This document shows, piece by piece, positions 14,721-55,866 of a stretch of 55,866 nucleotides of DNA. The stretch covers positions 1-55,866 of the forward strand of contig JAGOIH010000003.1 in assembly GCA_017995755.1 (NCBI GenBank), read 5' to 3'. A program made the translations under genes and the position numbers. The number at the start of each line of letters is the position of its first letter. The stretch's first letter is position 1. The stretch comes from Sedimentibacter sp. (GTDB lineage Bacteria > Bacillota > Clostridia > Tissierellales > Sedimentibacteraceae). Under the pieces are notes generated by a model. The model ran no database searches. It was given only the letters and a program-made list of their open reading frames with translations, and was not told where the DNA came from.

Positions 14721-17700
14721 TTATATTTTAGCAAGAATGTCTAATTTCTTGCCATCCTGCCCTGTTTGAACTTTATCATAATTAACTTTAACGCCATCAT
14801 CTAAATCAATTTCTATACGGCTAAGAGCTATATGGGCAATTTTCTCATCATATTCTTTTGTTTCTTTAAGCTGTTTTACAAGTTTTTCTTTACGTTTTTC
14901 TGCCTTTGCAACTTCACGAACTTGTGTACTGTTTTCAATTGTATCTTGCATACGATCGATTTCATTCATGTAAATTTTCTGCATTTTATGAAGATAATCT
15001 ACACGTACAATTCCTGTTGTATCGGCATTATAACGGTGCATGTATATAAGAGCTTTGAATCCATCTTGTTTGCCACTGTCATATAACCAATATATTGGAC
15101 ACTTTTTATAAACTTTTATATGGTCTTTATAAAAATCTTTTACAAAATAATTACGAATAATCTCTCTTGATGTACTACTTTTATTTCCTAATGCTTTTGC
15201 AATAAAATCAAGGTTCTCTTCAAGAGTTTCAGCTCCATATACTTTCTTTACAAATGCGACAAATAATCCAACAATATCATCTTTAAAATATTCTTCGTCG
15301 GTAATCGGAATAACATTATCATTGTCAGGTATAAAAGTAGTATATTTACTATCATCCCATTCACCACCTGCGTAAGCAAGGCCTTCTGCATCAAGTGAAT
15401 ATCTTCCGAACATACAGCCAACTGCATAGGATATGAGGCTTTTAATATCTCTTTGTAGGTCTGCCTTGCGGACAGTTACATCCTTATCTTCTACCTCGGG
15501 AGTAAGTTCATCTTGTAAGCCGTATATTTCTATGAAAATATGATTGAGTTTCTCTTCGTTGGCTTTGAGTTTTGCAAATTGTCCTTCTGCATATATCTCC
15601 CATGCTTTGAAAGCTGACGAAATCTTGCATATAGGTTTTGCATTTCCCCAAGCGTAAGCACCAGACATTCTAAATTTGATTAACGGATGAATTTGAAAAT
15701 CCCATGAGTTCTCAAAAGAATCCCAGTCTGCCTTGGATATTGATATGTTAGTTTCAGTTATAGAAACAACATTTTTAGCTATATCGTTATTCTCAATTAT
15801 CGGCAATCTTCCAATATCACCAGCTTGAAAATTAATAGTAGGTGCTAATATTTGTAGGACTTCTAATGAAATCGGTGTATTACAAAACGCTAAATAGTAC
15901 AACACCTTTTCTTTTGTTGTATAAAAAGACATGCCTGCTATGTCGGATAAGTTGTTCTCTTTATATCTAAACGCTGGCTGTCCTGATGTAATTAATGACC
16001 AGGATGCTGAAGGTGAAAACTTCAATTCATCTGGATAATCTTGTACATTTCTACCATCAACTTTAGCATATTCAAAAATTTCTGTTCCTTTGTTTTCCCA
16101 ATTTATTATATAGTCGTTATTACCATACCACTTTCGGAATTCCCCACCCTTATTATATGGAAACCATTTAGCATTAGAGATTACTGCATTATCTGTATTT
16201 TTTGCATTAAAATTACATTTAAAATTTGCAACTTCCCACCACAATCTCAAAAACCTTCCATTATCTCCAGTTTTCATACCATTTCTTACCACTGATAATT
16301 TACCAAGGGAAGTATAATTTTCAAACATCATAACTATTTTTTCGCTCGCCCAATATGCAATCGGCGACCCAGGAATTTTAGAGAAATTTTCTGCATTTGT
16401 TTCATAACAATATTCACATTCTTTATCTTCAATTGCTTCTAATACTTTTTGTTTCTGTACTACCATACCACCCTTAAAATCAGATAACTTAAAGTAAAGT
16501 CCTTTTGCTTTTTCTTGTCCGTTTTTTAGAACAAAGGAACAAATAGGTACAATAGCTTCCTCAAAAGCAGAATATTCCATCTGTATGAGAGTTGTTATCG
16601 ACTTATGGTTAATGATATATTCTCTCAAATTCTCATAGGTTTTTATAAACATCCATACAAATGGTGTCATAAAAGCAGAATATCCATCCTGCCTGCAATA
16701 TCCAAAATTACGATACATAAACACAGAGAACAAATCTCCACTATAAGGCTTATACTCCTCAACTACAAACTTTTTAAGATTACCTTCTAACTTATTCATA
16801 TATGGTGGATTAGTACAAACAACAGTATATTTTTGTGACATAATATGTGCTTGATTTGCAACTTTTAACATTGTCGGCAAAATATTGCTAATCCAATAAT
16901 CGCTATCGATTGTAATCTGTCCGGAAGCATAACAAGTATTTAAATATTCTTTAAACTCATTATAATTTCTATTTTCTATAGATAATAAGCTTCCTATTTC
17001 TTTTGCGTGCATATAAGCATTAACCAGGTATTCACCAACTTCGTTCTGTTCTACATCATAAGTAACACCATCACAGCTAAATCTTTTAATTGTATTAGTT
17101 TCCACAATTACAGAAACGTTGGGTTTAAGTTTCCTAGTCAATAACCTTCTATCATAGCTACGAGCTTTCATCATAACTGCAAAATAGGCAAGCTGATAAG
17201 CACGGTTATCTATATCAAGTCCAAATAGATTGTTTTCAACAATTGCCTGTGCTGCATCTCTATCTACATAGCCACATTCTCTATAAATCTCCATAAGGAT
17301 ATCAAAAGCATATACAAGAATATGTCCGCTTCCCATGCAAGGGTCAAAAAACGTCATCTCTTCAGGGGTAACTTTTTCATTAATATATTGAATTTCACCA
17401 TTTTTAGGTGTCACAAAATATTTTAATTTATCTTGTAATTTGCTGTTTGGATTTCTTTCTATCCAATAACGACCTAGAGAGTTATCCACCATATAACGAA
17501 CAACCCAATCTGTCGTAAATAATTGAGTAGCTGCAGGTATATCGTCCTTTTTAATTGTCCCTTTATAAATATTTATAACCTCATTCTTGCGTTCTTCATT
17601 ATAATATTGATAAAGCCATCCTATAATCTCTACTGCTTCTTTAAAATCTTCTTCATCTATATCATTAACTAAATGATTTACAAGACCGTCCTTATCCGTA

Positions 17701-18296
17701 AAAGAAATATTGAGTAATAATTCTGTATAGTCCAATGTCTTTTCGAAGAGTTCAGGTAGAACCTCATTTAATTTATTACATTGCTTAATAAACAGCATAC
17801 GAAATAATTCATCTAATTTGTTTTCATCTTTTAATTGCATGATTCTGTCTTTTTCATAGGGCGAGAAATCCATATCAGTATCAAAGGGTGTCGTCACCAT
17901 ATCCGGTTCTGACTTTCCCTTTGTTTCACTTGAAAGTACACGGATTCGTGAAGGCAAATAATCATTAACTTCCATAAATCGAATGGCAATTAAGCGATTA
18001 AACCATGTATAAGCAACTTCTTCAATAACAAATTGAAAAGCAGTTTTGTAATCAGATGTACTTTCTTTTTCTTTGATTCTCTTTATTAGAGCATTGCGTT
18101 GCTCAATTTCATGATTTGAAATTTCTGTGGGTTTACCCGTACCAATATCAAAAAATTGCACATTATTTGTAGATATTGGCAATGGTTGTAATATAGTTTT
18201 ATCATTGATACCTATAGTCCCCGCTTTATATGTAATATCACTGATAAGTTTACGTCTGGCCCAAATGGCAAAGTTTTTTATTGCTGTCTTGTTCAT
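14721..18296 (-). CDS. pglX: BREX-1 adenine-specific DNA methyltransferase PglX
   Basis: Methylates the non-palindromic BREX site to mark host DNA, and is also needed for exclusion. The 1191-residue protein has SAM-binding motif I FFDPCMGSGH (316-325) and catalytic motif IV NPPY (496-499), the signature of N6-adenine methyltransferases. Target recognition sequences follow (about 600-900), and the C-terminus ends with a charged helical region. Length is normal for the family and I see no break. AGGAGG lies just before the ATG; 12 nt separate it from brxC. The recognition sequence cannot be read from the protein; methylome data would give it. Confidence 0.96.
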   Translation of the reverse strand: MNKTAIKNFAIWARRKLISDITYKAGTIGINDKTILQPLPISTNNVQFFDIGTGKPTEISNHEIEQRNALIKRIKEKESTSDYKTAFQFVIEEVAYTWFNRLIAIRFMEVNDYLPSRIRVLSSETKGKSEPDMVTTPFDTDMDFSPYEKDRIMQLKDENKLDELFRMLFIKQCNKLNEVLPELFEKTLDYTELLLNISFTDKDGLVNHLVNDIDEEDFKEAVEIIGWLYQYYNEERKNEVINIYKGTIKKDDIPAATQLFTTDWVVRYMVDNSLGRYWIERNPNSKLQDKLKYFVTPKNGEIQYINEKVTPEEMTFFDPCMGSGHILVYAFDILMEIYRECGYVDRDAAQAIVENNLFGLDIDNRAYQLAYFAVMMKARSYDRRLLTRKLKPNVSVIVETNTIKRFSCDGVTYDVEQNEVGEYLVNAYMHAKEIGSLLSIENRNYNEFKEYLNTCYASGQITIDSDYWISNILPTMLKVANQAHIMSQKYTVVCTNPPYMNKLEGNLKKFVVEEYKPYSGDLFSVFMYRNFGYCRQDGYSAFMTPFVWMFIKTYENLREYIINHKSITTLIQMEYSAFEEAIVPICSFVLKNGQEKAKGLYFKLSDFKGGMVVQKQKVLEAIEDKECEYCYETNAENFSKIPGSPIAYWASEKIVMMFENYTSLGKLSVVRNGMKTGDNGRFLRLWWEVANFKCNFNAKNTDNAVISNAKWFPYNKGGEFRKWYGNNDYIINWENKGTEIFEYAKVDGRNVQDYPDELKFSPSASWSLITSGQPAFRYKENNLSDIAGMSFYTTKEKVLYYLAFCNTPISLEVLQILAPTINFQAGDIGRLPIIENNDIAKNVVSITETNISISKADWDSFENSWDFQIHPLIKFRMSGAYAWGNAKPICKISSAFKAWEIYAEGQFAKLKANEEKLNHIFIEIYGLQDELTPEVEDKDVTVRKADLQRDIKSLISYAVGCMFGRYSLDAEGLAYAGGEWDDSKYTTFIPDNDNVIPITDEEYFKDDIVGLFVAFVKKVYGAETLEENLDFIAKALGNKSSTSREIIRNYFVKDFYKDHIKVYKKCPIYWLYDSGKQDGFKALIYMHRYNADTTGIVRVDYLHKMQKIYMNEIDRMQDTIENSTQVREVAKAEKRKEKLVKQLKETKEYDEKIAHIALSRIEIDLDDGVKVNYDKVQTGQDGKKLDILAKI

Positions 18297-18308
18297 TACT
18301 TCCTCCTG

Positions 18309-21300
18309 CTAAAATTCTATGTTTAAAATTGTATCCTCTTTAATATTTTGCTTTAATTTTGCCTTTAAGACTTCAACATAACGGTCTACATCTGCTTCTG
18401 TTTCAATTCTCCAGGTAGCCTCTGAGTTTATTGATTTGATACTTATAGTCTTTTGTACTTTTAATTTCGGCTTAGGTTCAGCAACTTTGCCTGCTCCTGG
18501 TTCAGGTGGCGTTGTCGGTGGTTTAGCTGCTATAATACGTGCTTCTTCTGCACTTATCTCATTAAGCAAGCGAACTTTTAATGCATCTGCTTCAATTTTG
18601 ATGTTTTGTAGAGTGGCTACATTATTACAGCTTTTTGCCTTATCCTTAATTTCTTTAAATCGCTCGTACACCTTTTCGGAAAATACAACTTTACATTCTT
18701 TTCCTTCAAGTTCCTTTACAACACGAGAATGTGCTGCTTCAATAGCAGCAAGTACAGGTTGCTCCATTTTGTCAAGCATTGCATTATAAAGATCTGTATA
18801 ACGCTCAAGCAATTCAGGTATCTTTCTGATTTCACTATATGGAGATGACTTTTTCATAATCCCTTTTATTTCAGCAACCACTGTTTCAATTTCTTTATTG
18901 ACTATAAATGTCTTGCTATCGTCATATATTTTTATCAAGCGTAAACTTCTGTCCCAAATTCCAAGCTGTTCACCAGAAAAGAAAGCTTTTATAGGTTCAT
19001 ACTTTTCTGCAAATTGCAATATTTCATTTAATTTATTATCAACAGTCTTAAAAAATTCTACTGAATATTTAATACCTAATAGATTTATAAGCATAGATTT
19101 TCCATCTTTAACAACATTGAAACCCGGATAGCTTGGTTCGTTTTTGTAATGGATTTCTAACTTTTCAAGATCAGTTTTTAGGTTAGCTGCGTATTGCTGA
19201 AAACTCTTTAATATTGAATCATCTTCATCACTCATAGGTGTTACATTAAACAATTCTTTCATCACTTCTCTTACAGCTTTCTTCTGCTTGTCATTGGCCT
19301 TTTCTCTTTTCTCTGTAAGAAGTTTTTCAAGATATTCTTTACGACTAAGATAGCGGTATACCTCATCCTCTGTCTTGGTTAGTAAAGTTACCACCTCATT
19401 GTTAACAAAGAAAGCTATATCTCCATCTTTAAATAGTTTAGTAATTAGCCACTGAACATCATCTTCTATAAATCCGTATGGTTCTTTTGTAAATCGTTCC
19501 ATTATAGACTTCATGGATGTTTTCACATGTCTTTGGGTGTTCATGCCAATAAAATCTAAGGCATCATTTAAAGCTAATTTATTAGGTGTTTGTTCAGTTC
19601 CACCAATAGAAATCTGATTATTATTTCCTTTCAAAACCGCTCTTATATGAGATTCTCCCATAGCAGTGTCTATATAGTACAATTTATGGTATACCGTATG
19701 TACAAGTTTACCAAGAGCATCATTGATACGCACAGTTATGTCTTTTGATGCATTCTGTATTTTGTCACCATTTGTATATATATTAGCCTCTTTTAACGAC
19801 TCCTCTAAAAAGATTCGAGCATTTGAATTTCTTTCACGCATTTCAACACGTTTTGCTTCTTTGATTTGCTCATACTTTGTTACAACGCTAGATGTATTTA
19901 ATCTCAAATATTTTTCAATTTTTAATGCAGAACGAATCTCATCTATAAATGCTTTATCATCCGGTAGAGCCACAATAACGCATTTACTCTGTCCGCTCAT
20001 CATACGAAGTGTTGTTTCATCTGTACCAAGTTCATAATTTGGTGTTAATACTTTAAGTGAAATATCGTAATTCTGATTTCCCTTATAAGGTCTGTCATCT
20101 ACAATCTGATTATATGCAAAATTATATCTGCCGTTAAATGCAGGATATCTATATTTTTTCTCTGAATATAAGCCATCAAAAATTAACTCTGATACTTTTG
20201 TGATAACTTCAGAAATTTCAACATGTTGACTTTCAATTTCTCTATTAATCTCCTGTTCTTCATCCGTTAAAAATACATATAAGTCACTGGTTTTTTGTAT
20301 AAGCGTTTGACGTACAAGACGTTTTAAAGACTGTTCAACTTTATCTTTTAGTGCAATTCTATCATCATCTATATTAGAGACCATTAAGCTTGTTATGTTC
20401 TCTAAATTAGCTACAATTTCTTTGACATATTTAATCATAAAAAGTGTCTTCAAAACATTGACATCAAAACAATCCTCCAATTTATCAGGATTTAAATATT
20501 CATTATCATAGGCACGAATAATTACACCTTTGTGACTATGATCTAAAAATTGCTCAAGAGCATCATAGAACAGATTGAAAGGAACAATTGTGCCTTCGGG
20601 ATTCTCCATAATTTTCATAGCAGACTCTTTAAATAATGCTAACATAGAGCGTTCACCTTCAGCTAAATGCTTACCACTCGCTCCATGGGTCCTTATTGAA
20701 GTAAGAACACTTGCCAGCAGATTAAATTGATATGGAACGAAAGGGTATACAGCAGAAAAATCATTTCTGTCCGAATATAGTTTCTTTTCTATGCCATCAT
20801 TAAAAATAATAAGGTTTTTGATTATTGTTTCTTTTTCATCGTAAAGAAGTCCTAATGTTTGTCTTCCGGTTTCTGTTTTTTCAAGTATTCTCTTTCTGAT
20901 AACTTCATCCACGTTTGCTGATGACAAGGAAAGCCTTGTATCAAATCTACCTTGAATTTTAGAAAAATCATTTCCCTTTGTTTTTGTAATACTATCAATA
21001 TCCTGCTGACTTGTTACCACAACCCAGGCTTTACCGTGACAGGCAACTCCCAATTCTTCTACCACTGTCTGTAGGTTTAGCATCAATTTTGAATTATCAC
21101 CTATATATTGACCCATTTCATCCACTAAGAAAACAATATGATGATTCTTACTTTTTTTATTTATATATTTTTTAACCATATTTGCAAAGGTTATTATATC
21201 GATATTATAGGTGCCTGTTGAACTTTCACACCAGTTTTTTGCAGCATCCATACTCATATAATTGATTTGAACCAATGCTTTACATACATAGTCTTGAATA

Positions 21301-21914
21301 AATCTAAACTGATGTCTCGAGTCTAACCATTCTTTACCGCGTATTTCAGCAAATGCTTTTTTGAAATCTTCATACTTGCCTTCCTCTGTAAGTTGTCTTT
21401 CTAAATCTGCCAAAAAGGGGTTAGCTCCATAGAACCCTAAGTGTTGATTAAAGACTTTTAAAAACACAGAAAGAATAGCTTCTTTGTTATTCTGAGAATC
21501 GCCCATTCCGCTTTTAGAATCAATATTAAACAATATAACATCACTTGATACATTAGCTGCGAGTTTCATGTCTGCAAGAACCATTTCATTTTTTATCTTT
21601 TTATCCTCGATAAAATAATCAATTGCTGTTTTTCCATCAACAACTCGATTTTCCAGTAGGTAGGATAGTATTTTTAAGAAATGTGATTTACCACTTCCAA
21701 AGAAGCCGGAAATCCAAACTCCCATTGCATCTGTATTTCCAATAATTCCCCTTTTATAACTGGAGAAAAAATCAGCAAAGTGTTTTTGCAGCTCTCTTGT
21801 TACTACATATTCTTCAAGCTCCTGCTTTACATTTTCATCATCACCTTGTCCAACTTTAATAACACCTTTTATATTTCTGTCAATTGGTTTAGCAAACATA
21901 TTCTTAATATACAT
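18309..21914 (-). CDS. brxC: BREX P-loop ATPase BrxC
   Basis: Large ATPase (1201 residues) of the BREX core, related to PglY. The N-terminal AAA+ domain has Walker A ISGFFGSGKSHFLK (68-81) and the Walker B stretch HHIVFLVDEMGQYIG (about residues 261-275). A long helical middle and C-terminal region with a proline-rich linker (PPTTPPEPGAGK) is followed by a short terminal domain. Length is normal and the frame is intact. AGGTGGAGG precedes the ATG; the gap to brxB is 13 nt. BrxC is required for both methylation and phage blocking in studied systems. Confidence 0.95.
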   Translation of the reverse strand: MYIKNMFAKPIDRNIKGVIKVGQGDDENVKQELEEYVVTRELQKHFADFFSSYKRGIIGNTDAMGVWISGFFGSGKSHFLKILSYLLENRVVDGKTAIDYFIEDKKIKNEMVLADMKLAANVSSDVILFNIDSKSGMGDSQNNKEAILSVFLKVFNQHLGFYGANPFLADLERQLTEEGKYEDFKKAFAEIRGKEWLDSRHQFRFIQDYVCKALVQINYMSMDAAKNWCESSTGTYNIDIITFANMVKKYINKKSKNHHIVFLVDEMGQYIGDNSKLMLNLQTVVEELGVACHGKAWVVVTSQQDIDSITKTKGNDFSKIQGRFDTRLSLSSANVDEVIRKRILEKTETGRQTLGLLYDEKETIIKNLIIFNDGIEKKLYSDRNDFSAVYPFVPYQFNLLASVLTSIRTHGASGKHLAEGERSMLALFKESAMKIMENPEGTIVPFNLFYDALEQFLDHSHKGVIIRAYDNEYLNPDKLEDCFDVNVLKTLFMIKYVKEIVANLENITSLMVSNIDDDRIALKDKVEQSLKRLVRQTLIQKTSDLYVFLTDEEQEINREIESQHVEISEVITKVSELIFDGLYSEKKYRYPAFNGRYNFAYNQIVDDRPYKGNQNYDISLKVLTPNYELGTDETTLRMMSGQSKCVIVALPDDKAFIDEIRSALKIEKYLRLNTSSVVTKYEQIKEAKRVEMRERNSNARIFLEESLKEANIYTNGDKIQNASKDITVRINDALGKLVHTVYHKLYYIDTAMGESHIRAVLKGNNNQISIGGTEQTPNKLALNDALDFIGMNTQRHVKTSMKSIMERFTKEPYGFIEDDVQWLITKLFKDGDIAFFVNNEVVTLLTKTEDEVYRYLSRKEYLEKLLTEKREKANDKQKKAVREVMKELFNVTPMSDEDDSILKSFQQYAANLKTDLEKLEIHYKNEPSYPGFNVVKDGKSMLINLLGIKYSVEFFKTVDNKLNEILQFAEKYEPIKAFFSGEQLGIWDRSLRLIKIYDDSKTFIVNKEIETVVAEIKGIMKKSSPYSEIRKIPELLERYTDLYNAMLDKMEQPVLAAIEAAHSRVVKELEGKECKVVFSEKVYERFKEIKDKAKSCNNVATLQNIKIEADALKVRLLNEISAEEARIIAAKPPTTPPEPGAGKVAEPKPKLKVQKTISIKSINSEATWRIETEADVDRYVEVLKAKLKQNIKEDTILNIEF

Positions 21915-46620: not shown

Positions 46621-47097
46621 CTATATTATTCTTTTGATCCATTCCTCCACGGGTTTTCTTACCTGATCAGGGGTAAGAGGGATTTCCTCAACTGTTTTAA
46701 TAAAGAATGTGTCTATTACCTTTCCGCCTTTTGCCTTAACACGTGATGAAACAGATTCATATACAAAATCATGCGCTTCTTTATTTGTCTGGGTAAGGAA
46801 AACATATACATTCTTTCCTGTGAAATTTGAGCGGCTGAGAAATGCATTGATAGGTGTTGAAGTTTTCCCTGCCCAAACAGGAGAGCCTATAAATATATTG
46901 TCATAATCCTCCAAATAAAAATCAATTGGTTTTATTTTTCCGTCCTTTTTTGTTAAGGCATTAAATCCAGCCCAAAATATGCTGATTTTCTTTTTAAGTT
47001 CAATTCTTTTGATATCGCCTTTTACTATCTTTGCTATTTCCTTTGCTACGATTTCAGTATGGCCTGTTCTCGAATAATATACAACTAAATTTTTCAT
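46621..47097 (-). CDS. Flavodoxin-like protein (copy 1)
   Basis: FMN-binding flavodoxin/NADPH-quinone-type protein of 158 residues with the phosphate loop VVYYSRTGHTEIVAKEIA and IFIGSPVWAGKTSTPINAF. It is about two-thirds identical to the 158-residue protein encoded immediately upstream, so the pair is a tandem duplication. The two have the same length and conserved FMN-contact loops. Confidence 0.88.
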   Translation of the reverse strand: MKNLVVYYSRTGHTEIVAKEIAKIVKGDIKRIELKKKISIFWAGFNALTKKDGKIKPIDFYLEDYDNIFIGSPVWAGKTSTPINAFLSRSNFTGKNVYVFLTQTNKEAHDFVYESVSSRVKAKGGKVIDTFFIKTVEEIPLTPDQVRKPVEEWIKRII

Positions 47098-47218
47098 TTT
47101 TCTCCCCTATTTATTCAATATGAATTTTAAAATTTTATGAGTTTATTATGTCTATTCCAGGTACGGTTCGTTCTCAAATCCGCGGCTGCAAGCCTGCTCT
47201 AAAAGATGTCCGTGATAT

Positions 47219-47695
47219 TTATATTATTTTTTTAATCCACTCCTCCACGGGTTTTCTTGCCTGTTCCGCGGTAACAGGGTTTTTCATATCTGTTGTAATA
47301 AAGAATTTGTCTGCAACTTTCCCGCCTTTTGCTTCAACACGGGCTGCAATGGAATCAAATACCAAACTAGGTGTTTTATCATCTGCCTGGGTGATGAAAA
47401 TATATACATTCTTTCCCGTGAAATCTGCATTGCTTAGAAATGTGTTGATTGGCGTTGAAGTTTTCCCTGCCCAGACAGGAGAGCCTATGAATATATTGTC
47501 GTAGCCTTTCAAATCATAGTCAAATGGTTTGATTTTCCCCTGTTTTCCCATTGCACTTGTACATCCTGCCCAGAAGAAGCTGATTCCCTTTATCAGCTCA
47601 ATCTTTCTCATATCCCCGTCAACAGCTTTAGCTATTTCCTTTGCAACTGTTTCCGTATTGGTGGTTCTTGAATAATATACAACTAAATTTTTCAT
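47219..47695 (-). CDS. Flavodoxin-like protein (copy 2)
   Basis: Paralogue of the downstream gene: VVYYSRTTNTETVAKEIA, IFIGSPVWAGKTSTPINTFL and a C-terminus EQARKPVEEWIKKII matching DQVRKPVEEWIKRII. FISFFWAG in the middle corresponds to SIFWAGF. Both copies look intact; divergence at the third-position and surface residues suggests an old duplication. Confidence 0.88.
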   Translation of the reverse strand: MKNLVVYYSRTTNTETVAKEIAKAVDGDMRKIELIKGISFFWAGCTSAMGKQGKIKPFDYDLKGYDNIFIGSPVWAGKTSTPINTFLSNADFTGKNVYIFITQADDKTPSLVFDSIAARVEAKGGKVADKFFITTDMKNPVTAEQARKPVEEWIKKII

Positions 47696-48071: not shown

Positions 48072-49184
48072 ATGAAAATGAAAATATTTTTACTGTTTTT
48101 AACATTAATATCGGTAATTTTTTTATTCGCATGTGATAATAATACAAAAAGCAGCTTAAATAATGAATTGCCGGATGAGAACAATATTAATTCAAAAGGA
48201 AAGGACGATGATGTGATGGATAAGGACTTAAACGGAAATAAATTGATTTATCTTGCAGGAGGATGTTTCTGGGGTACTGAAAAATATTTAGGGTTGGTAA
48301 AGGGAGTCGTGGAAACTGAGGTTGGGTACGCAAACGGTAATACTGAAAACCCTTCGTATGAGGATGTTTGCAGAAGAAACACCGGCCATGCGGAGACGGT
48401 AAAGGTGGTATACGACCCGGAAGTGATTGATTTGGAAAACTTGCTGAAGCTGTTTTACAAGGCAATTGACCCCGTAGCTGTAAACAGGCAGGGCTATGAT
48501 ATAGGAACTCAATACCGTACAGGGGTTTATTATGTTGACAAAGAGGATGAAGCTGTAATTAATACATCCTTAGATGAGCTGCAGAATAGTTATTCCGAGC
48601 CCTTGGCTGTAGAGGTTGTAGAGCTTAAGAATTATTATCCTGCGGAAGATTATCACCAAAAGTATCTTGAAAAGAATCCCGGCGGCTACTGCCATATTGG
48701 TGAGTCAGAGTTTTGCGAGCTGGAAGAAGCTCAAAAAGATACCGAGTATAAGGTAAAATCAAAGAAGGAATTAGAGATGACTCTTACGGAAATGCAGTAT
48801 AATGTTACTCAAAACAGTGCTACGGAGCCTCCTTTTGACAATGAATACTTCGATAATTTTGAAGAGGGCATCTATGTTGATATTACTTCCGGAGAGCCTT
48901 TATTTACATCAAAGGACAAATTCGAATCAGGATGCGGATGGCCCAGCTTCTCAAAGCCCATTGATGAAGATGTGATTGAAGAAAAAAAAGACAAAAGTTT
49001 CGGCATGATAAGAACAGAAGTAAGAACAGCAAACAGTGATTCCCATTTAGGCCATGTTTTCAATGACGGTCCCAAAGAATCAGGAGGATTGAGATACTGC
49101 ATCAACAGTGCTTCACTGGAATTCATTCCAAAAGATGAAATGGAAGCAAAGGGCTATGGAGACCTGCTTTATTTGTTTGATTAA
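48072..49184 (+). CDS. msrAB: Lipoprotein methionine sulfoxide reductase MsrA-MsrB fusion
   Basis: Repair enzyme for oxidised methionine in exported proteins, 370 residues. A lipoprotein signal ([10 protein letters not shown], lipid Cys21) and a short linker lead to MsrA ([13 protein letters not shown], catalytic Cys65; [16 protein letters not shown]) and then MsrB ([35 protein letters not shown] with Cys343). The MsrB metal-binding Cys pairs found in many homologues are absent, which is common for the secreted form. The zone before it has GGGGG 4 nt from ATG 48072; ATG 48078 is an alternative. Confidence 0.92.
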
Positions 49185-50127: not shown

Positions 50128-51015
50128 TTAAAATAACATTTGCAGGCTTATCTGTTCATTTAATTGCTTGTCTTCAAATTCACTCAAATAAGAAAAAACC
50201 TTATCCGGCTTACACAGTATATTATGCTTATAACATTCTGAGTAGAGTATATTCATAAGTTTATTATTGTTTTTGCTATGACATTCGTAGGAATTACAGA
50301 ATTCTTTAATATACTTTTGTTTCATGCCTGAAAAATGCTCATCTAATTTTTTATAAAAATATTCTCTGTTTCCGTCTCTCAATGTTAATCCTATACCAAA
50401 ACACATTATTCCATGAACCTCTGCTTCTATACAGTAATTTAGGAGTTCTCTAAGGTTTTCTTCCGTATCATTAATAAAAGGTAAAAAAGGTGACAACCAT
50501 ACTACTGTTGCTATACCATTATTCCGAAATATCTTTAATGCTTCAAAGCGTTCTCTTGTGGTTGAAACATTAGGCTCAATGATTCTGCACAAATTTTCGT
50601 CTGATGTGGTAAGGGTCATCTGGACCACACATTTGGTTTTTTTATTTATACTTTTTAATATATCTAAATCCCTCAAGATTTTATTTGATTTAGTAAGTAT
50701 TGATAGTCCAAATCCATACTTATCTATTATTTGCAGACATTTGCGGGTATACATGATTTCATCTTCAATATGAATGTATGGATCACACATGGAACCTGTT
50801 GCAATCATGCATTTTTTTCGTTTATGCTTTAATGCATGCTCGAGCATTTCAGGGGCATTTAGCTTTATTTCTATGTCTGTAAAATCATGGTTAATCTGAT
50901 AACATAAGCTTCTACTGTCACAATAAATGCAGCCGTGACTGCAACCCCTATAAATATTCATACCGTTTTTTGCTGAAAGTATCGATTTGTATTCTTTATA
51001 ATGCAATACTATCAC
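50128..51015 (-). CDS. Radical SAM protein, spore-photoproduct-lyase-like family
   Basis: Radical SAM enzyme of 295 residues with the 4Fe-4S motif RGCSHGCIYCDSR (CxxxCxxC), IATGSMCDPYIHIEDE, LSILTKSNKILRDL and VVQMTLTTSDENLCRIIEPN, as in the SPL/Rv2578c-type radical SAM family. Substrate unknown; full photoproduct lyase has a further conserved Cys that I cannot place. It lies between the inverted repeats. Confidence 0.85.
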   Translation of the reverse strand: MIVLHYKEYKSILSAKNGMNIYRGCSHGCIYCDSRSLCYQINHDFTDIEIKLNAPEMLEHALKHKRKKCMIATGSMCDPYIHIEDEIMYTRKCLQIIDKYGFGLSILTKSNKILRDLDILKSINKKTKCVVQMTLTTSDENLCRIIEPNVSTTRERFEALKIFRNNGIATVVWLSPFLPFINDTEENLRELLNYCIEAEVHGIMCFGIGLTLRDGNREYFYKKLDEHFSGMKQKYIKEFCNSYECHSKNNNKLMNILYSECYKHNILCKPDKVFSYLSEFEDKQLNEQISLQMLF

Positions 51016-51191: not shown

Positions 51192-52307
51192 TTATAGCAA
51201 GCCGCATTCTATGTGAACGGGTTTATTGTGGTCTAATATTATTTCCATATCGTTATTTGCGTAATAAATGCTGCTTTTAAATTTAATGGACCTGATTTTT
51301 TTATATATACAATCGTTGGGATGGCTGGCGGTCATTCCTATTATAAACATTTTATAATTTTTCCTTATTTCTTTTGCTATTTCATACAGAAATAAATTAT
51401 AGTAATGGCTGTTGTTATCTTTTGAATAAAACATAGTTAATGTGGGAAAATTTAAAATTTCATTTTCCTTTGGAATAGGAATATAACCCATAATTTCAGT
51501 AAACTTTGAAAACTTTTTGAAAAATTTCATATATCCCGTATATCTTGTAACTATATATTGCTTGTAATCCCTTTGGTCCCATAAGGCTCCAAAGGCAAGT
51601 ATCCTGCTTTTATCTTCCAATATATAGCAGTCCCTTATTGACAGTCCGTGAAATTGTTTAAATAAGTCTTCCGCTATTGGGGCAAAATTATATTTTTGTC
51701 CTTCCTCATTTAGAAATTTGTATACATCCTTAAGATCGGATTCCCTTATTTGTCTGAATATGTAATCTTTCTCTTTTGAACTTATATTATCCTTTGAATT
51801 TATATTATACTTTACATTTGTTCTATCTATCGGCCTTTTAATTGCATCAGGATTTATTATATAGGTAGTATATTCGCAGACAGGTAAAATTTCAGGAATA
51901 TACTTTCTTTTTTTCGAAAATATATCAAGGGCAGCCTTGTTATCCTCTAAAAATGAGCAGTAAAACATATCACATTTTGTTTGTGTCACAAAATCCGTAA
52001 TATCTTTCCAGTTAAGAATTCCCTTATAATCCTTCTTTTTTCTGATTCCCCCCACATAACCGACTCTTCTTGCTTGACCGTTTATGTAATAACTTTGCAC
52101 AACACAGGCAATTTGCAGCAAAATACTGCCTTCATCATCTTTAACAAGACCGATTTTTGCTTCTCCTTCTTTTTGGTAAGACAAACAGGCATTTGGTCTT
52201 CTGGTATAAATAAGCTCAATGTTCCCCTTTGCGGAATCTGATTCTATTAAGTTCAGCATTTCTGTGCCGTCAGATAATTCTGCCTGCATAATTTTATTTT
52301 TCATCAA
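51192..52307 (-). CDS. GNAT-like acetyltransferase family protein
   Basis: Protein of 371 residues with a two-GNAT-domain look: IACVVQSYYINGQARRVGYV then GGIRKKKDYKG near residue 65-95 is the strand-loop-helix of a GNAT acetyl-CoA site, and FIFRQIRESDLKDVYKFLNE begins the second half. Substrate unknown. It overlaps the end of the upstream radical SAM gene by 14 bp, so it belongs to that operon and may act on the same product. Confidence 0.65.
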   Translation of the reverse strand: MMKNKIMQAELSDGTEMLNLIESDSAKGNIELIYTRRPNACLSYQKEGEAKIGLVKDDEGSILLQIACVVQSYYINGQARRVGYVGGIRKKKDYKGILNWKDITDFVTQTKCDMFYCSFLEDNKAALDIFSKKRKYIPEILPVCEYTTYIINPDAIKRPIDRTNVKYNINSKDNISSKEKDYIFRQIRESDLKDVYKFLNEEGQKYNFAPIAEDLFKQFHGLSIRDCYILEDKSRILAFGALWDQRDYKQYIVTRYTGYMKFFKKFSKFTEIMGYIPIPKENEILNFPTLTMFYSKDNNSHYYNLFLYEIAKEIRKNYKMFIIGMTASHPNDCIYKKIRSIKFKSSIYYANNDMEIILDHNKPVHIECGLL

Positions 52308-53628
52308 GGTTCTCTCCTACCGGTATGCCGAAACGCTTATCAACTTCAAAGTGAAATAAAATATTTTGAATCCAATATACAAGGTTTATTAAGGGTCTTT
52401 TGGTCCTTTTAAAAAGTGTTATTCCTCTTTTGAATATTGAAGAAAAGGCAAAATATTTTTTCTTGTATATACGGCATAAATTTTTCAGTTCATCATCAGT
52501 AACCAATTTTGGTTTAAATGAAATTGTTCCGAATGTATAGCCCTCTGAAAGCCACCACTTGTCATGGGACAGCCTTTCTTCTTTTTTAAATTTTTCATAG
52601 GTTTCAGTATTGGGAAACAAAAGAAGGTGATTGAAGGCCGTCACGAAAAATTGGTGATGGTTGCAAAATTCAAGGTTCTTTTCAAAGCTTTCTTCATTGT
52701 CATAATCAAATCCAAATACAAAACTTGCATAGATGCTTATTCCGTTATTGTGGATTCTTTCTATGAGCTCATCTCTTTCCCCGAGCCTGGTTGTCCATGA
52801 CTTGTTCATCTGCCTTAAATTATCAGGGTCAATTGATTCAAATCCGATCAAAATCATCTCGCATCCGCTTTTTTTCATAAGCCTAAGAAGGTCTTCATCC
52901 CTGCCGATGTCAAGGGTAACCTGGGTAACCCATATGATATTTAATTTTGCTACTTCAGTGAAAAGTTCTTTTGCAAATTCTTTGTCTGAAAAAATACTGT
53001 CATCCACGAAAAAGAATATTTTATTGCTGCAGAGTTTGATTTCTTCAATGATTGTCTCAATGCTCCTGTGACTGTATTGCTGGTTGTAGTAGGAGTGGAT
53101 TGAGCAGAATTCACACTGATGATAGCATCCCCTGCCGATTTCAACCAGGGATATGGGCAGGTATTTCTTTGTTTTATCAGAGTAAATGCCGCGGTCTGCT
53201 ATTCCATAGTCGAGACATATATTACCTTCATATATTTTTTTATATGCACCCTTTTCTATATCTCTTAAAACCTCTTCCCACACTCCTTCAGCATTGCCCT
53301 TGACCACAATATCTGCGTGTTCAGCTGCCTCTTCAGGCATGAGAGTGGGGTGATATCCTCCCATTACAATAATCTTGCCTTTTTCCTTGAATCTTTTTGC
53401 TATTTCATAAGCTCTTTTTGCAGTGTAGGTTTCCACTGTAATTGCAATTATGTCTGAATCCGTATTGAAGTCTATGTTTTCGATCCGGTCATCGAAAAAT
53501 TCTCTTTCATAAATTTTGGGGGTAAGAGTGTTTAAAACAGCAATGGTAAGAGGCTCCATAAGCCATGATTTTAAATAAGAGTCTTTCTTTTTCTTTCCTA
53601 TTCCCGGCAGTATAAATGTGATTTTCAT
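52294..53628 (-). CDS. B12-binding-type radical SAM protein (copy 3)
   Basis: Radical SAM enzyme of 444 residues. An N-terminal Rossmann domain (MKITFILPGIGKKKKDSYL... DIIAITVETYTAKRAYEIA, KIIVMGGYHPTLMPEEA) resembles cobalamin-binding domains but has no DxHxxG ligand motif (FFDDRIENI instead). The radical SAM core follows with EIGRGCYHQCEFCSIHSYY (CxxxCxxC) and a BchE/Mg-porphyrin-type C-terminus. The start overlaps the previous gene by 4 bp (ATGA). Third paralogue in a row. Confidence 0.88.
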   Translation of the reverse strand: MKITFILPGIGKKKKDSYLKSWLMEPLTIAVLNTLTPKIYEREFFDDRIENIDFNTDSDIIAITVETYTAKRAYEIAKRFKEKGKIIVMGGYHPTLMPEEAAEHADIVVKGNAEGVWEEVLRDIEKGAYKKIYEGNICLDYGIADRGIYSDKTKKYLPISLVEIGRGCYHQCEFCSIHSYYNQQYSHRSIETIIEEIKLCSNKIFFFVDDSIFSDKEFAKELFTEVAKLNIIWVTQVTLDIGRDEDLLRLMKKSGCEMILIGFESIDPDNLRQMNKSWTTRLGERDELIERIHNNGISIYASFVFGFDYDNEESFEKNLEFCNHHQFFVTAFNHLLLFPNTETYEKFKKEERLSHDKWWLSEGYTFGTISFKPKLVTDDELKNLCRIYKKKYFAFSSIFKRGITLFKRTKRPLINLVYWIQNILFHFEVDKRFGIPVGENLDEK

Positions 53629-54971
53629 TTTCCTGTCTCCTCGTAGCCAAGATTCATACCTTGTTTTTCAAAAACTTCTCTTTTAAATATGGGATTATAA
53701 ATACAGTAGGTAATAAATCTGTATGGATTTTTCATGTTCGTTTTAAGGTCAAAAGCCCTGTATGCTATGGATTTAAAAGAATTGTATTTTTCCCTGCACA
53801 AAAATGATGCTTCCGTAAGTTCATGGGCAGTCATGTTTTTTGGGATGTAGGCAGCATAATTGAACTTGTATTCAGGGTGAAGCCACCATTTTGAGTCATA
53901 CAAAAGTCTGTTTTCCCTGTTTAGTTTATTGTAGAGTTCTGTCCCCGGATAAGGCATTAAAATATTGTAGGCTGCAAATGTAAACTTGTTTTTCAGCGCA
54001 AATTCGTAGGTTTCCCTTATGCTTTCCAAAGTATCGTCCTCATGTCCAAGGGTAAATGCCGCCCATGTCTGAAGCCCCCAGCTTCTCAGCTCTTCTATCG
54101 CATCCTTGTATTTGTTTTCAGCATATGATTTATTGACGCCTTTTTTCATGGTATTAATGCTTTCCTGTTTTATGGATTCAAAACCTATTACATGGCCTAA
54201 GCATCCGCTTTCCATCATTAAGCTCATAAGTTCCTTGTCCTTTAACATGTCCAGGCTTGCCTGGCTGACCCATTTAACATTCAAAGGTATTAAGGCTCTG
54301 AATAATTCTTTAGCTTTTTCTTTATTCCCAACTATATTATCATCAACAAAAAATAGTGTTTTTCTTTCCTGGCTTTTTATTTCTTGAATAACTTCCTGTA
54401 CGTTTCTCGTATAGTGGCGGTTTTTAAAATAAACACCGGAGGCACAGTAATTGCAGGAGTAGGGGCATCCCCTTGAAAACTGCAGAAGGGTTATTGGAAG
54501 GTATCCTTTACCCTTAAAAATATCTCTTCTTGTTATTACTCCCTCCTGGGGTATTAAAACAGGCTTGCAGGTGTAGATTTTCTTTAATACTCCGGTTCTT
54601 AAATCCTCTATCATTTCGCCCCATTTATCTTCAGCATCGCCTATCATGATGCTATCACAATGTTCAGCAGCTTCTTCAGGGATTAACATAACGTGCATGC
54701 CTCCCATTATTACCTTTACATTTCTTCTCCTGTATTCACTGCTTATTTCGTAAGCTCTTCTGGCAGTAAATGTTTCCACTGTGATGCAGACTAAATCTGT
54801 GGGCTCATCATAAAGGATTGGCTCCATTCTGTCATCATACAAACACACATCAATATCGGCCGGAGTCAAGGCGGCAAGTACTCCAAGCTGCAAAGGCTCC
54901 ATCCTTGCTTCATCTACATAGAGGCTGTGTTCTCTTCTTCCTATGTTGGGCTTAATCAGTGTAATCTTCAT
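53625..54971 (-). CDS. B12-binding-type radical SAM protein (copy 2)
   Basis: Paralogue, 448 residues. It begins MKITLIKPNIGRREHSLYVD, has LVCITVETFTARRAYEIS and VIMGGMHVMLIPEEAAEHCD, then LLQFSRGCPYSCNYCASGVYF (Fe-S motif) and LGHVIGFESIKQES. ATG 54971 has GGTGG 5 nt upstream and is preferred over TTG 54983. It overlaps the upstream gene by 20 bp and the downstream gene by 4 bp. Like copy 3 it lacks DxHxxG (YDDRMEPI). The substrate is unknown; tailoring of a lipid or peptide is possible. Confidence 0.88.
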   Translation of the reverse strand: MKITLIKPNIGRREHSLYVDEARMEPLQLGVLAALTPADIDVCLYDDRMEPILYDEPTDLVCITVETFTARRAYEISSEYRRRNVKVIMGGMHVMLIPEEAAEHCDSIMIGDAEDKWGEMIEDLRTGVLKKIYTCKPVLIPQEGVITRRDIFKGKGYLPITLLQFSRGCPYSCNYCASGVYFKNRHYTRNVQEVIQEIKSQERKTLFFVDDNIVGNKEKAKELFRALIPLNVKWVSQASLDMLKDKELMSLMMESGCLGHVIGFESIKQESINTMKKGVNKSYAENKYKDAIEELRSWGLQTWAAFTLGHEDDTLESIRETYEFALKNKFTFAAYNILMPYPGTELYNKLNRENRLLYDSKWWLHPEYKFNYAAYIPKNMTAHELTEASFLCREKYNSFKSIAYRAFDLKTNMKNPYRFITYCIYNPIFKREVFEKQGMNLGYEETGK

Positions 54972-55866
54972 ATATGCCACCAAGCTTTCTTCCTTGTTTG
55001 TTTTTAATTTGAATGTGTGAAATAATATTTAAGACTAAATATAAGTAGGCATTTCCTAAACTCCTAAAATTTGCTTTACAAAATAACCTTTTAAAAATAC
55101 TCTTATATGAGCTGAATAAATACCTGGCGTTTTTGCATCCCTTTTGCAGGTCTTCCCCTGTCATCCCCATTGGATATAACATTGCATCCCCATACCTGAA
55201 GTTCTCATTTGTCCACCATTCATCGCAGGTTAATCTATTTTCATCCTTCAATCTGTCGTAAAGCCTGGTTCCGGGCATTGCCATAAGAGGATTGAAATTA
55301 GCTATGGCAAAAGAATTTCTTATTGCAAAATCAGCAAGTTCAATAGCGCTGTCCTTATTGTCATAATCATAGCCGATTACAAATGTGCCGTAAATCATCA
55401 TGCCTACATCGTAGATATTTTTTATTATCCTGTCATATTCTATATTTTTGATGTTTGCCGATTTTCCCATCTGCTTTAAATTGCCTGTATTTAAAGATTC
55501 AAAACCGATTAAAACCATCAAACAGCCGCTTTTTTTCATAAGCTCCAAAAGCTCTTTGTTTTCACCGATATCAATGCTTATCTGGCAAACCCACTTTTTC
55601 TTAAGAGGAATCATTGCTTTAAAAAGTTTTCTTGCTTCCCTTTCATCGGTAAATAAATTGTCATCAATGAAAAAAATATATTTTTCCTTTATGTTTATTA
55701 TATCCTCAACTACATTTTCTATAGGTCTTGTCCGTATTCTCCCTTTATAAAACCCGTTGATTGAACAAAAGTCACAGTTGAATCTGCAGCCCCGGCTGAA
55801 TTGAACCAAGCCTACCGGGTTGTATTTTTTGCCTTGGAAAACACTGTAATCATACTTTACAGTCCC
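54952..55866 (-). CDS. B12-binding-type radical SAM protein (copy 1), 5' end outside window
   Basis: Partial gene: the frame is open from 55866 to a stop at 54952 (about 304 codons). The visible part begins YSVFQGKKYNPVGLVQFSRG, then CRFNCDFCSINGFYKGR (Fe-S motif), followed by IEDIINIKEKYIFFIDDNLF, LMVLIGFESLNTGNLKQMGK and the same C-terminus type as its two neighbours. The N-terminal Rossmann domain lies past the right edge. First gene seen of the four-gene overlapping operon. Confidence 0.85.
   Translation of the reverse strand, partial: GTVKYDYSVFQGKKYNPVGLVQFSRGCRFNCDFCSINGFYKGRIRTRPIENVVEDIINIKEKYIFFIDDNLFTDEREARKLFKAMIPLKKKWVCQISIDIGENKELLELMKKSGCLMVLIGFESLNTGNLKQMGKSANIKNIEYDRIIKNIYDVGMMIYGTFVIGYDYDNKDSAIELADFAIRNSFAIANFNPLMAMPGTRLYDRLKDENRLTCDEWWTNENFRYGDAMLYPMGMTGEDLQKGCKNARYLFSSYKSIFKRLFCKANFRSLGNAYLYLVLNIISHIQIKNKQGRKLGGIYEDYTD

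Follow-up and report, generated by a model that had tools for sequence, protein, structure and literature searches.

The last part of a 55,866-nucleotide contig from Sedimentibacter sp. (C40 of genome G000, the whole of which is called the window below) encodes a series of radical S-adenosylmethionine (rSAM) enzymes and a GNAT-type protein, GNATa. The gene set has no name and recurs in many anaerobes, and it looks like an undescribed pathway toward a lipid-like molecule. Our preferred reading, held tentatively and with somewhat less than even confidence, is that it is an operon of anaerobes for one small lipid-like N-acylated amide (an N-acyl amino acid or similar), on which the rSAMs act in series. 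We favor a serially tailored N-acylated amide because the only named bacterial model matched by the GH3 protein of sister loci is OlsH, the acyltransferase resembles N-myristoyltransferase (NMT), the permease is of an amino acid type, and the models nearest the rSAMs are those of ring-forming or rearranging enzymes and a P-methyltransferase. A description of the gene set was not found in the open-licence PMC literature, and an account may exist elsewhere.

A six-gene operon on two contigs

The initial annotation of the window proposed three consecutive rSAM genes and a GNAT-like gene at positions 51192-55866, and these are present on the minus strand as described (Table 1). Neighboring genes overlap by 20, 4 and 11 bp with ATG starts, in keeping with the 4-20 bp first reported, and by 32, 4 and 14 bp with the listed TTG starts. 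All three window rSAM proteins match Radical_SAM (PF04055) above the Pfam cut-off and the CX3CX2C motif is present, which places them in the radical SAM superfamily. The window holds three of these paralogues, but the operon has four; the fourth and the missing N terminus of rSAM2 are found on contig C89. The full unit of six genes reads permease-rSAM1-rSAM2-rSAM3-rSAM4-GNATa. The join of C40 and C89 is supported by two congeners (L043 and L044), which carry the identical six-gene order on unbroken contigs. In Sedimentibacter saalensis and one congener, the six-gene cassette is situated within a ribosomal-protein region (L043, 5099-12671), between rplQ(L17)-like and ecfA-like (ECF ATPase) genes, as named by eye.

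Table 1. Genes of the operon and the junction of the two contigs. Positions without a contig name refer to the window; aa, amino acids.
Feature	Position	Strand	Remarks
GNATa	51192..52304	-	two-domain GNAT protein, 370 aa (ATG); 371 aa from TTG at 52307; C terminus ...ECGLL
rSAM4	52294..53628	-	444 aa; CX3CX2C at 53104-53127; N-terminal B12-binding-like domain; own clade, SH 0.998
rSAM3	53625..54971	-	448 aa (ATG); 452 aa from TTG at 54983; CX3CX2C at 54444-54467; clade SH 0.995
rSAM2, C-terminal 304 aa	54952..55866, open at window edge	-	CX3CX2C at 55765-55788; clade SH 0.998
rSAM2, N terminus	C89:2-535		completes the protein to 440 aa in all
Shared 127 bases	55740..55866	.	exact match to C89:1-127
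rSAM1	C89:550-1896	-	fourth paralogue, 448 aa
Trp/Tyr-type permease	C89:1955-3097	-	family match 43 bits, cut-off 22

Recurrence in anaerobes and two operon forms

Searching about 85,000 species genomes with an rSAM3 alignment yielded 462 relatives, of which the 80 most similar loci were kept; motif and tree counts were restricted to rSAMs of at least 400 amino acids. Because the 80 loci were chosen by similarity, their composition is biased toward close relatives. By best match, and with many of the contigs short, these best 80 of 462 loci all contain rSAM2 and rSAM3, which stand side by side in every case, together with rSAM1 or a fifth rSAM (r5) in 75, GNATa in 69 and rSAM4 in 68. The figure of 75 takes in r5, which is present in 45 loci, and rSAM1 proper is present in 68. 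Within the clusters, the median distance from one gene to the next is -4 bp (295 gaps). Forty-eight loci are clear of contig ends, and 45 of them hold rSAM1 to rSAM4 and GNATa.

Most hosts are Clostridia; the set also occurs on a Citrobacter plasmid and in a few metagenome-assembled genomes (MAGs) from other phyla. Named hosts include Butyrivibrio, Ruminococcus flavefaciens 007c, Alkaliphilus serpentinus and Peptoclostridium litorale; the MAGs are labeled Synergistaceae, Mucispirillum, Anaerolineales, Gemmatimonadetes and Calditrichaeota, and several may owe the set to a stray contig. Counting the genome of the window itself, GNATa was found in 4 of 100 relatives searched and in 7 of 398 Bacillota genomes. 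When GNATa was used as an independent starting point, 6 other matches were obtained in 397 Bacillota genomes, five of which adjoin cluster rSAMs, one of these on the contig of L141.

The loci occur in two forms. Among the best 80 of 462, a GH3 amide synthetase is encoded in 51, a permease in 21, and a second, small GNAT-like protein (GNATb) in 53, in 50 of them together with GH3. GH3 and the permease co-occur in none of the 80. Of the 48 loci that do not run into a contig end, 15 are of the permease type, all with rSAM1 to rSAM4 and GNATa, and 31 are of the GH3 type, 29 of which are complete for the same five genes and two of which lack rSAM4; one further locus consists of rSAM1 to r5 and GNATa with neither module. 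The exchange is also seen in a close relative: in L069, whose rSAM3 is the nearest relative of the window protein (78%), GNATb-GH3 lies directly upstream of rSAM1, the position of the permease in the window type. The Citrobacter portucalensis set, on a mobilizable IncF plasmid (L055, 8993-21088), is a complete GH3 form with GNATb, GH3, five rSAMs, GNATa, a PAP2 protein and a desaturase. A near-mode search with its stretch from GH3 to the fifth rSAM matched no other plasmid record and no Escherichia coli genome.

In whole-genome searches, no GH3 (PF03321) was detected in the genome of the window (G000), in G003, G019 or G023, in two Butyrivibrio genomes, or in the S. saalensis genome, of which another copy was searched. 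Seven genomes that bear GH3 or GNATb were also searched: six contain one GH3, and the seventh, that of L140, has GNATb and no GH3. All 6 permease-side genomes searched lack GNATb, and each of the 3 searched of the other form has one copy; G023 is counted as permease-side, although its contig ends before the permease position.

GH3 enzymes couple a carboxylate to an amine using ATP. The sole NCBIfam match of the cluster GH3 is OlsH (NF052613), at 48 bits against a cut-off of 620. OlsH and the GH3 of the sister loci share the family and its conserved motifs; the window's own genome departs from the ornithine lipid pathway in lacking GH3, which is present in the sister form of the locus. OlsH is described as a GH3-like lyso-ornithine-lipid enzyme with N-acyl ornithine as its product, and its authors are quoted as expecting other N-acyl amino acids from relatives (PMC12493201). 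The tree in that paper already includes GH3 homologues of R. flavefaciens and other Firmicutes, with no rSAM context; the word "radical" does not occur in its text (PMC12493201).

Relatives of the GH3 and GNAT genes were also found in aerobes. The unnamed cluster of Burkholderia arboris (L154, 7431-18612) encodes GNATb, GNATa, GH3, a Rieske oxygenase, a PF10118 protein and three domains of the fatty-acid-desaturase type, with no cluster rSAM within about 9 kb; its genes are raw open reading frames (ORFs), since this part of the record is not annotated with genes. In Acinetobacter baumannii, one record has relatives of GH3, GNATa and GNATb together with HlyD, MFS and TolC-type genes. Around the Azospirillum homologue of GNATb (L155), the flanking sequence contains neither GH3 nor GNATa nor a cluster rSAM over about 9 kb. 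The loci may represent one core with either oxygen-dependent or radical tailoring, for which Burkholderia is the one clear case.

Radical SAM paralogues and the predicted acyltransferase fold

The four rSAM paralogues are mutually 33-38% identical, but each is 61-76% identical to its own orthologues in the congeners. This difference, far beyond chance, indicates old paralogues. In a FastTree of 357 rSAMs, rSAM2, rSAM3 and rSAM4 form clades with SH support of 0.998, 0.995 and 0.998, respectively, with one member per locus, and recent tandem duplication is thus ruled out by the low paralogue identity and the separate clades. We claim clean clades for these three only, since rSAM1 lacks a supported clade (SH 0.372) and mixes with r5 and with rSAMz of a second cluster described below. 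The rSAM4-like gene of Citrobacter and the fourth rSAM of L140 and of L147 fall outside the rSAM4 clade. The CX3CX2C motif is intact in every protein counted (rSAM1, 68/68; rSAM2, 78/78; rSAM3, 78/78; rSAM4, 66/66; r5, 45/45).

Smaller natural sets exist. In three genomes (G227, G714 and G594), a genome-wide search at E 1e-40 finds only two rSAMs of the cluster type, and GNATb, GH3 and GNATa lie next to them. The pair is rSAM1 and rSAM4 in G227, which is 88% complete, and in G714, and rSAM1 and one other in G594. The set thus seems to grow by rSAM2 plus rSAM3 and by r5, which fits serial tailoring.

A second multi-rSAM cluster was observed in the genome of the window (L010, contig C24, 1-6061), with rSAMs x, y and z, a methyltransferase, a FemAB-like protein and a GNAT-like protein. 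Its rSAMz is 30-34% identical to the window rSAMs, and similar sets, full or partial, occur in L049, L051, L054, L064, L065, L067 and L068.

The initial annotation took the sequences FFDDRIENI and YDDRMEPI, standing where the cobalamin motif DxHxxG was expected, as a sign against cobalamin. Both sequences were found, and DxHxxG is absent from all four rSAM proteins of the genome, including the parts recovered from C89 (the rSAM2 N terminus and rSAM1). The conclusion drawn from it was unsound. Structurally known cobalamin-dependent rSAMs are described as binding cobalamin without a histidine ligand, with Asn, Arg or Trp supplied by the loop after strand 3 in OxsB, TsrM and TokK (PMC13331322); the missing motif therefore says nothing about B12. 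The B12-binding family PF02310 (cut-off 32.1) is matched above the cut-off by rSAM1 (39.0) and rSAM4 (36.6) and narrowly missed by rSAM3 (30.7). Among the congener orthologues, rSAM2 scores 40.6, rSAM4 28.2 and rSAM3 20.5; two pass and two fail. No cobalamin, SAM or T-box element was above threshold in 13 loci and the C89 contig, and none was found at the operon start. Among these 14 sources, L136 alone has a riboswitch, a c-di-GMP-I aptamer located some 1.1 kb beyond the downstream end of GNATa; in L089, a drum RNA follows GNATa at a distance of about 130 bp, and an RNA-element match at the window end is due to chance (E 0.75).

The predicted model of rSAM3 (pLDDT 92.0) is closest in fold to AprD4 (6fd2), with Z 30.5 over 384 residues, a root mean square deviation (rmsd) of 2.8 and 20% identity. 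It is followed by CysS (25.6), MgmA (25.5), MiaB (24.8), TsrM (24.3) and OxsB (24.0). As AprD4 is a dehydratase, the operon rSAMs may use cobalamin or do without it. The non-methylase cobalamin rSAMs known so far are described as acting in ring formation or rearrangement (PMC13142503).

Comparison with named families gave distant matches for rSAM3, rSAM4 and the window part of rSAM2. HpnJ (TIGR03471) and BchE (TIGR02026) share the Rossmann-like N terminus and the CX3CX2C core and are among the best NCBIfam matches, at up to 95 bits, but the scores of 85-95 for HpnJ and 78-91 for BchE are far below the cut-offs of 577.6 and 481.35. Unlike those systems, the operons described here as a rule hold four to five paralogues. 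The hopanoid-like scaffold suggested in the initial annotation was abandoned, the squalene-hopene cyclase domain PF13243 being present in 0 of 10 genomes searched (the window's own genome is 85% complete). The AprD4 model (NF033070) scores at most 54 bits against a cut-off of 500, and AprD4 is described as a lone enzyme that acts on paromamine and is paired with a reductase (PMC5461906). Matches to the ladderane-type rSAM/B12 model (TIGR04072) are weak as well, 49-77 bits against a cut-off of 360, and the six-gene operon is without a fatty-acid-synthase gene. The ladderane pathway is itself a lipid pathway that uses several rSAMs of one superfamily.

The GNAT label given to the acyltransferase is weak by sequence and strong by predicted fold. 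Window GNATa has no Pfam match, although its orthologues in L142 and L055 exceed the Acetyltransf_1 cut-off. A model based on 28 sequences (pLDDT 90.6) retrieved an NMT as the first Foldseek match (E 1.1e-12); NMTs are the majority of the 50 matches listed, with a few other acetyltransferases and no long-chain bacterial acyltransferase, which does not exclude one. In VIA, the NMTs align over 288-299 residues with Z 20.1-21.4 and rmsd 3.7-4.5 (best, Z 21.4, 295 residues, rmsd 4.2). Almost all of these alignments extend to the last residue of the model, 371, and end in the partners at residue 496 (most human chains), 455 (yeast, 2nmt), 451 (Candida, 1iyl) and 410 (Plasmodium vivax), the last residues of those NMTs. 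By the predicted model and the aligned ranges only, GNATa would thus have the structural signature of an NMT, a tandem GNAT fold with the C-terminal residue in the NMT position. It differs from the eukaryotic enzymes in its identity of 10-13%, in being bacterial and in lying in what looks like a metabolite operon. In human NMT1, the C-terminal carboxylate of Gln496 is described as the catalytic base, and a truncated form of that enzyme is described as retaining its kcat by means of a different base (PMC7048800).

Proposed pathway, alternatives and neighboring genes

In the pathway that we favor, the building block would be an amino acid or amine. In the sister loci, GH3 would adenylate a carboxylate and form an amide, perhaps with the help of GNATb; the window type has the Trp/Tyr-type permease in their place and may import the block ready made. 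rSAM1 and rSAM4, then rSAM2 and rSAM3 and often r5, would each generate a 5'-deoxyadenosyl radical and use it to remove hydrogen at a scaffold position of its own. The outcome could be desaturation, ring closure or C-C/C-O changes, of the kind that aerobes make with diiron and Rieske oxygenases. GNATa would transfer a long acyl chain from coenzyme A or acyl carrier protein to an amine, and, like NMT, may use its own C-terminal carboxylate as the base. Serial action on one scaffold with an acyltransferase, proposed at the outset, is plausible in light of the separate orthologue groups of rSAM2, rSAM3 and rSAM4 and of the two-rSAM genomes with the same acyltransferase, but acylation may or may not be the final step. 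A lipid scaffold was upheld in part, by the NMT-type fold, the distant relationship of GH3 to OlsH, and the Citrobacter desaturase and PAP2 genes.

A wider generalization, for which we see rather little likelihood, is a class of pathways in which a bacterial NMT-type acyltransferase builds an N-acyl amide and two to five rSAMs carry out anoxic C-H oxidations, one position each, that are done by diiron desaturases and Rieske oxygenases in aerobic loci, much as BchE and the aerobic cyclase are counterparts for one step. Under that generalization, the sets rSAM1 and rSAM4, plus rSAM2 and rSAM3, plus r5 would correspond to successive natural intermediates, and loci with the permease would import an early amide made by others. 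If the N-acyl amide pathway is real, a conserved pathway has been overlooked in gut and rumen anaerobes (Butyrivibrio, Ruminococcus and other Lachnospiraceae) and in sediment bacteria, and the roles of four to five radical enzymes could be assigned by comparing the natural two-, four- and five-enzyme versions. It would also offer a rare opportunity to study how HpnJ/BchE-type rSAMs that are not methylases work on a single scaffold, and to examine an acyltransferase from bacteria with the build of an NMT.

Several observations weigh against the N-acyl amide pathway. No carrier-protein or ketosynthase family recurs near the loci. One of the 48 loci clear of contig ends holds rSAM2 and rSAM3 alone, and one weak GNATa match in the Bacillota scan (E 2e-23) is without a cluster rSAM. 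The exclusion of permease and GH3 does not reflect many independent events, because the exchange of the permease for GH3/GNATb amounts to two changes on the rSAM3 tree (75 labeled rows), and a match to a Trp/Tyr permease family says little about the cargo. Replacement by aerobic enzymes rests on a single locus, that of Burkholderia; the Acinetobacter locus has neither rSAM nor oxygenase. As to GNATa, a sequence profile search found weak acetyltransferases only, and no NMT was among its matches to PDB sequences at E up to 1. The mycobacterial tandem GNAT MAB_4324 (7q3a) ties with NMT at Z 20.2, but it aligns to residue 352 only, and the Foldseek matches listed include a Bacillus anthracis acetyltransferase, in fifth place, and a glucosamine N-acetyltransferase. 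The predicted fold does not fix the acyl length. The last residue is leucine in 65 of 68 GNATa proteins and another in 3 of 68, and the C-terminal base is inferred from the range of the alignment, not from seen coordinates.

Cobalamin-dependent methylation, with each rSAM a class B methylase on a lipid, amino acid or small metabolite, would account for the B12-binding matches of rSAM1 and rSAM4, for the PhpK P-methyltransferase model among the top NCBIfam matches, and for the closeness of rSAM3 to the methylases CysS, MgmA and TsrM. We nevertheless consider it unlikely: a dehydratase is closer to rSAM3 than any of these, MiaB is about as near as TsrM, the non-methylases HpnJ and BchE score equally high, and no cobalamin riboswitch was above threshold in the 14 sources. 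The set could also remodel membrane lipids, coupling, cyclizing or desaturating membrane acyl chains with no free metabolite. The NMT-like acyltransferase, the PAP2 and fatty acid desaturase genes adjoining the Citrobacter set, and hosts such as Butyrivibrio and Ruminococcus point in this direction, but the patchy occurrence of GNATa, the presence of the set on a plasmid, and the Acinetobacter neighbors, whose HlyD, MFS and TolC-type genes fit a secreted compound, make it quite improbable.

AprD4 is the top solved match by both sequence and fold, as expected if AprD4-type radical dehydratases deoxygenated an amino sugar or aminoglycoside-like molecule and the GNATs served as N-acetyltransferases. 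The low score of the AprD4 model and the GH3, which is hard to fit, make such a route very unlikely; no sugar enzyme or reductase was recognized among the families present in at least 6 loci, with no search aimed at them. Least credible is a pathway for a ribosomally synthesized and post-translationally modified peptide, capped by the GNATs, although there are weak matches to rSAM models for peptide modification (ApyD). The cluster proteins scanned showed neither a SPASM nor an RRE domain. For the peptide scaffold raised in the initial annotation, no local precursor was found: in the gaps and within 1.2 kb, every family of small ORFs is confined to at most 4 of the 80 loci (matches of at least 95% identity left out).

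Other genes of the window were noted in passing. Just downstream of the operon (50128-51015), another rSAM gene matches the PA0069/Rv2578c type at 135-138 bits, below the cut-offs; it is not beside the cluster in L043 and L044. Two tandem genes for 158-residue proteins, 4-5 kb from the operon (46621-47695), encode a flavodoxin-like protein by Pfam and a second that is alike by eye; they do not adjoin the operon in L043 and L044. Flavodoxins can serve rSAM enzymes. BREX defence genes occupy positions 14721-21914, with a BrxC-like ATPase (18309-21914) adjoining an Eco57I-type methylase (14721-18296). A fused MsrA-MsrB methionine sulfoxide reductase is encoded at 48072-49184, with a lipoprotein-like start by eye.

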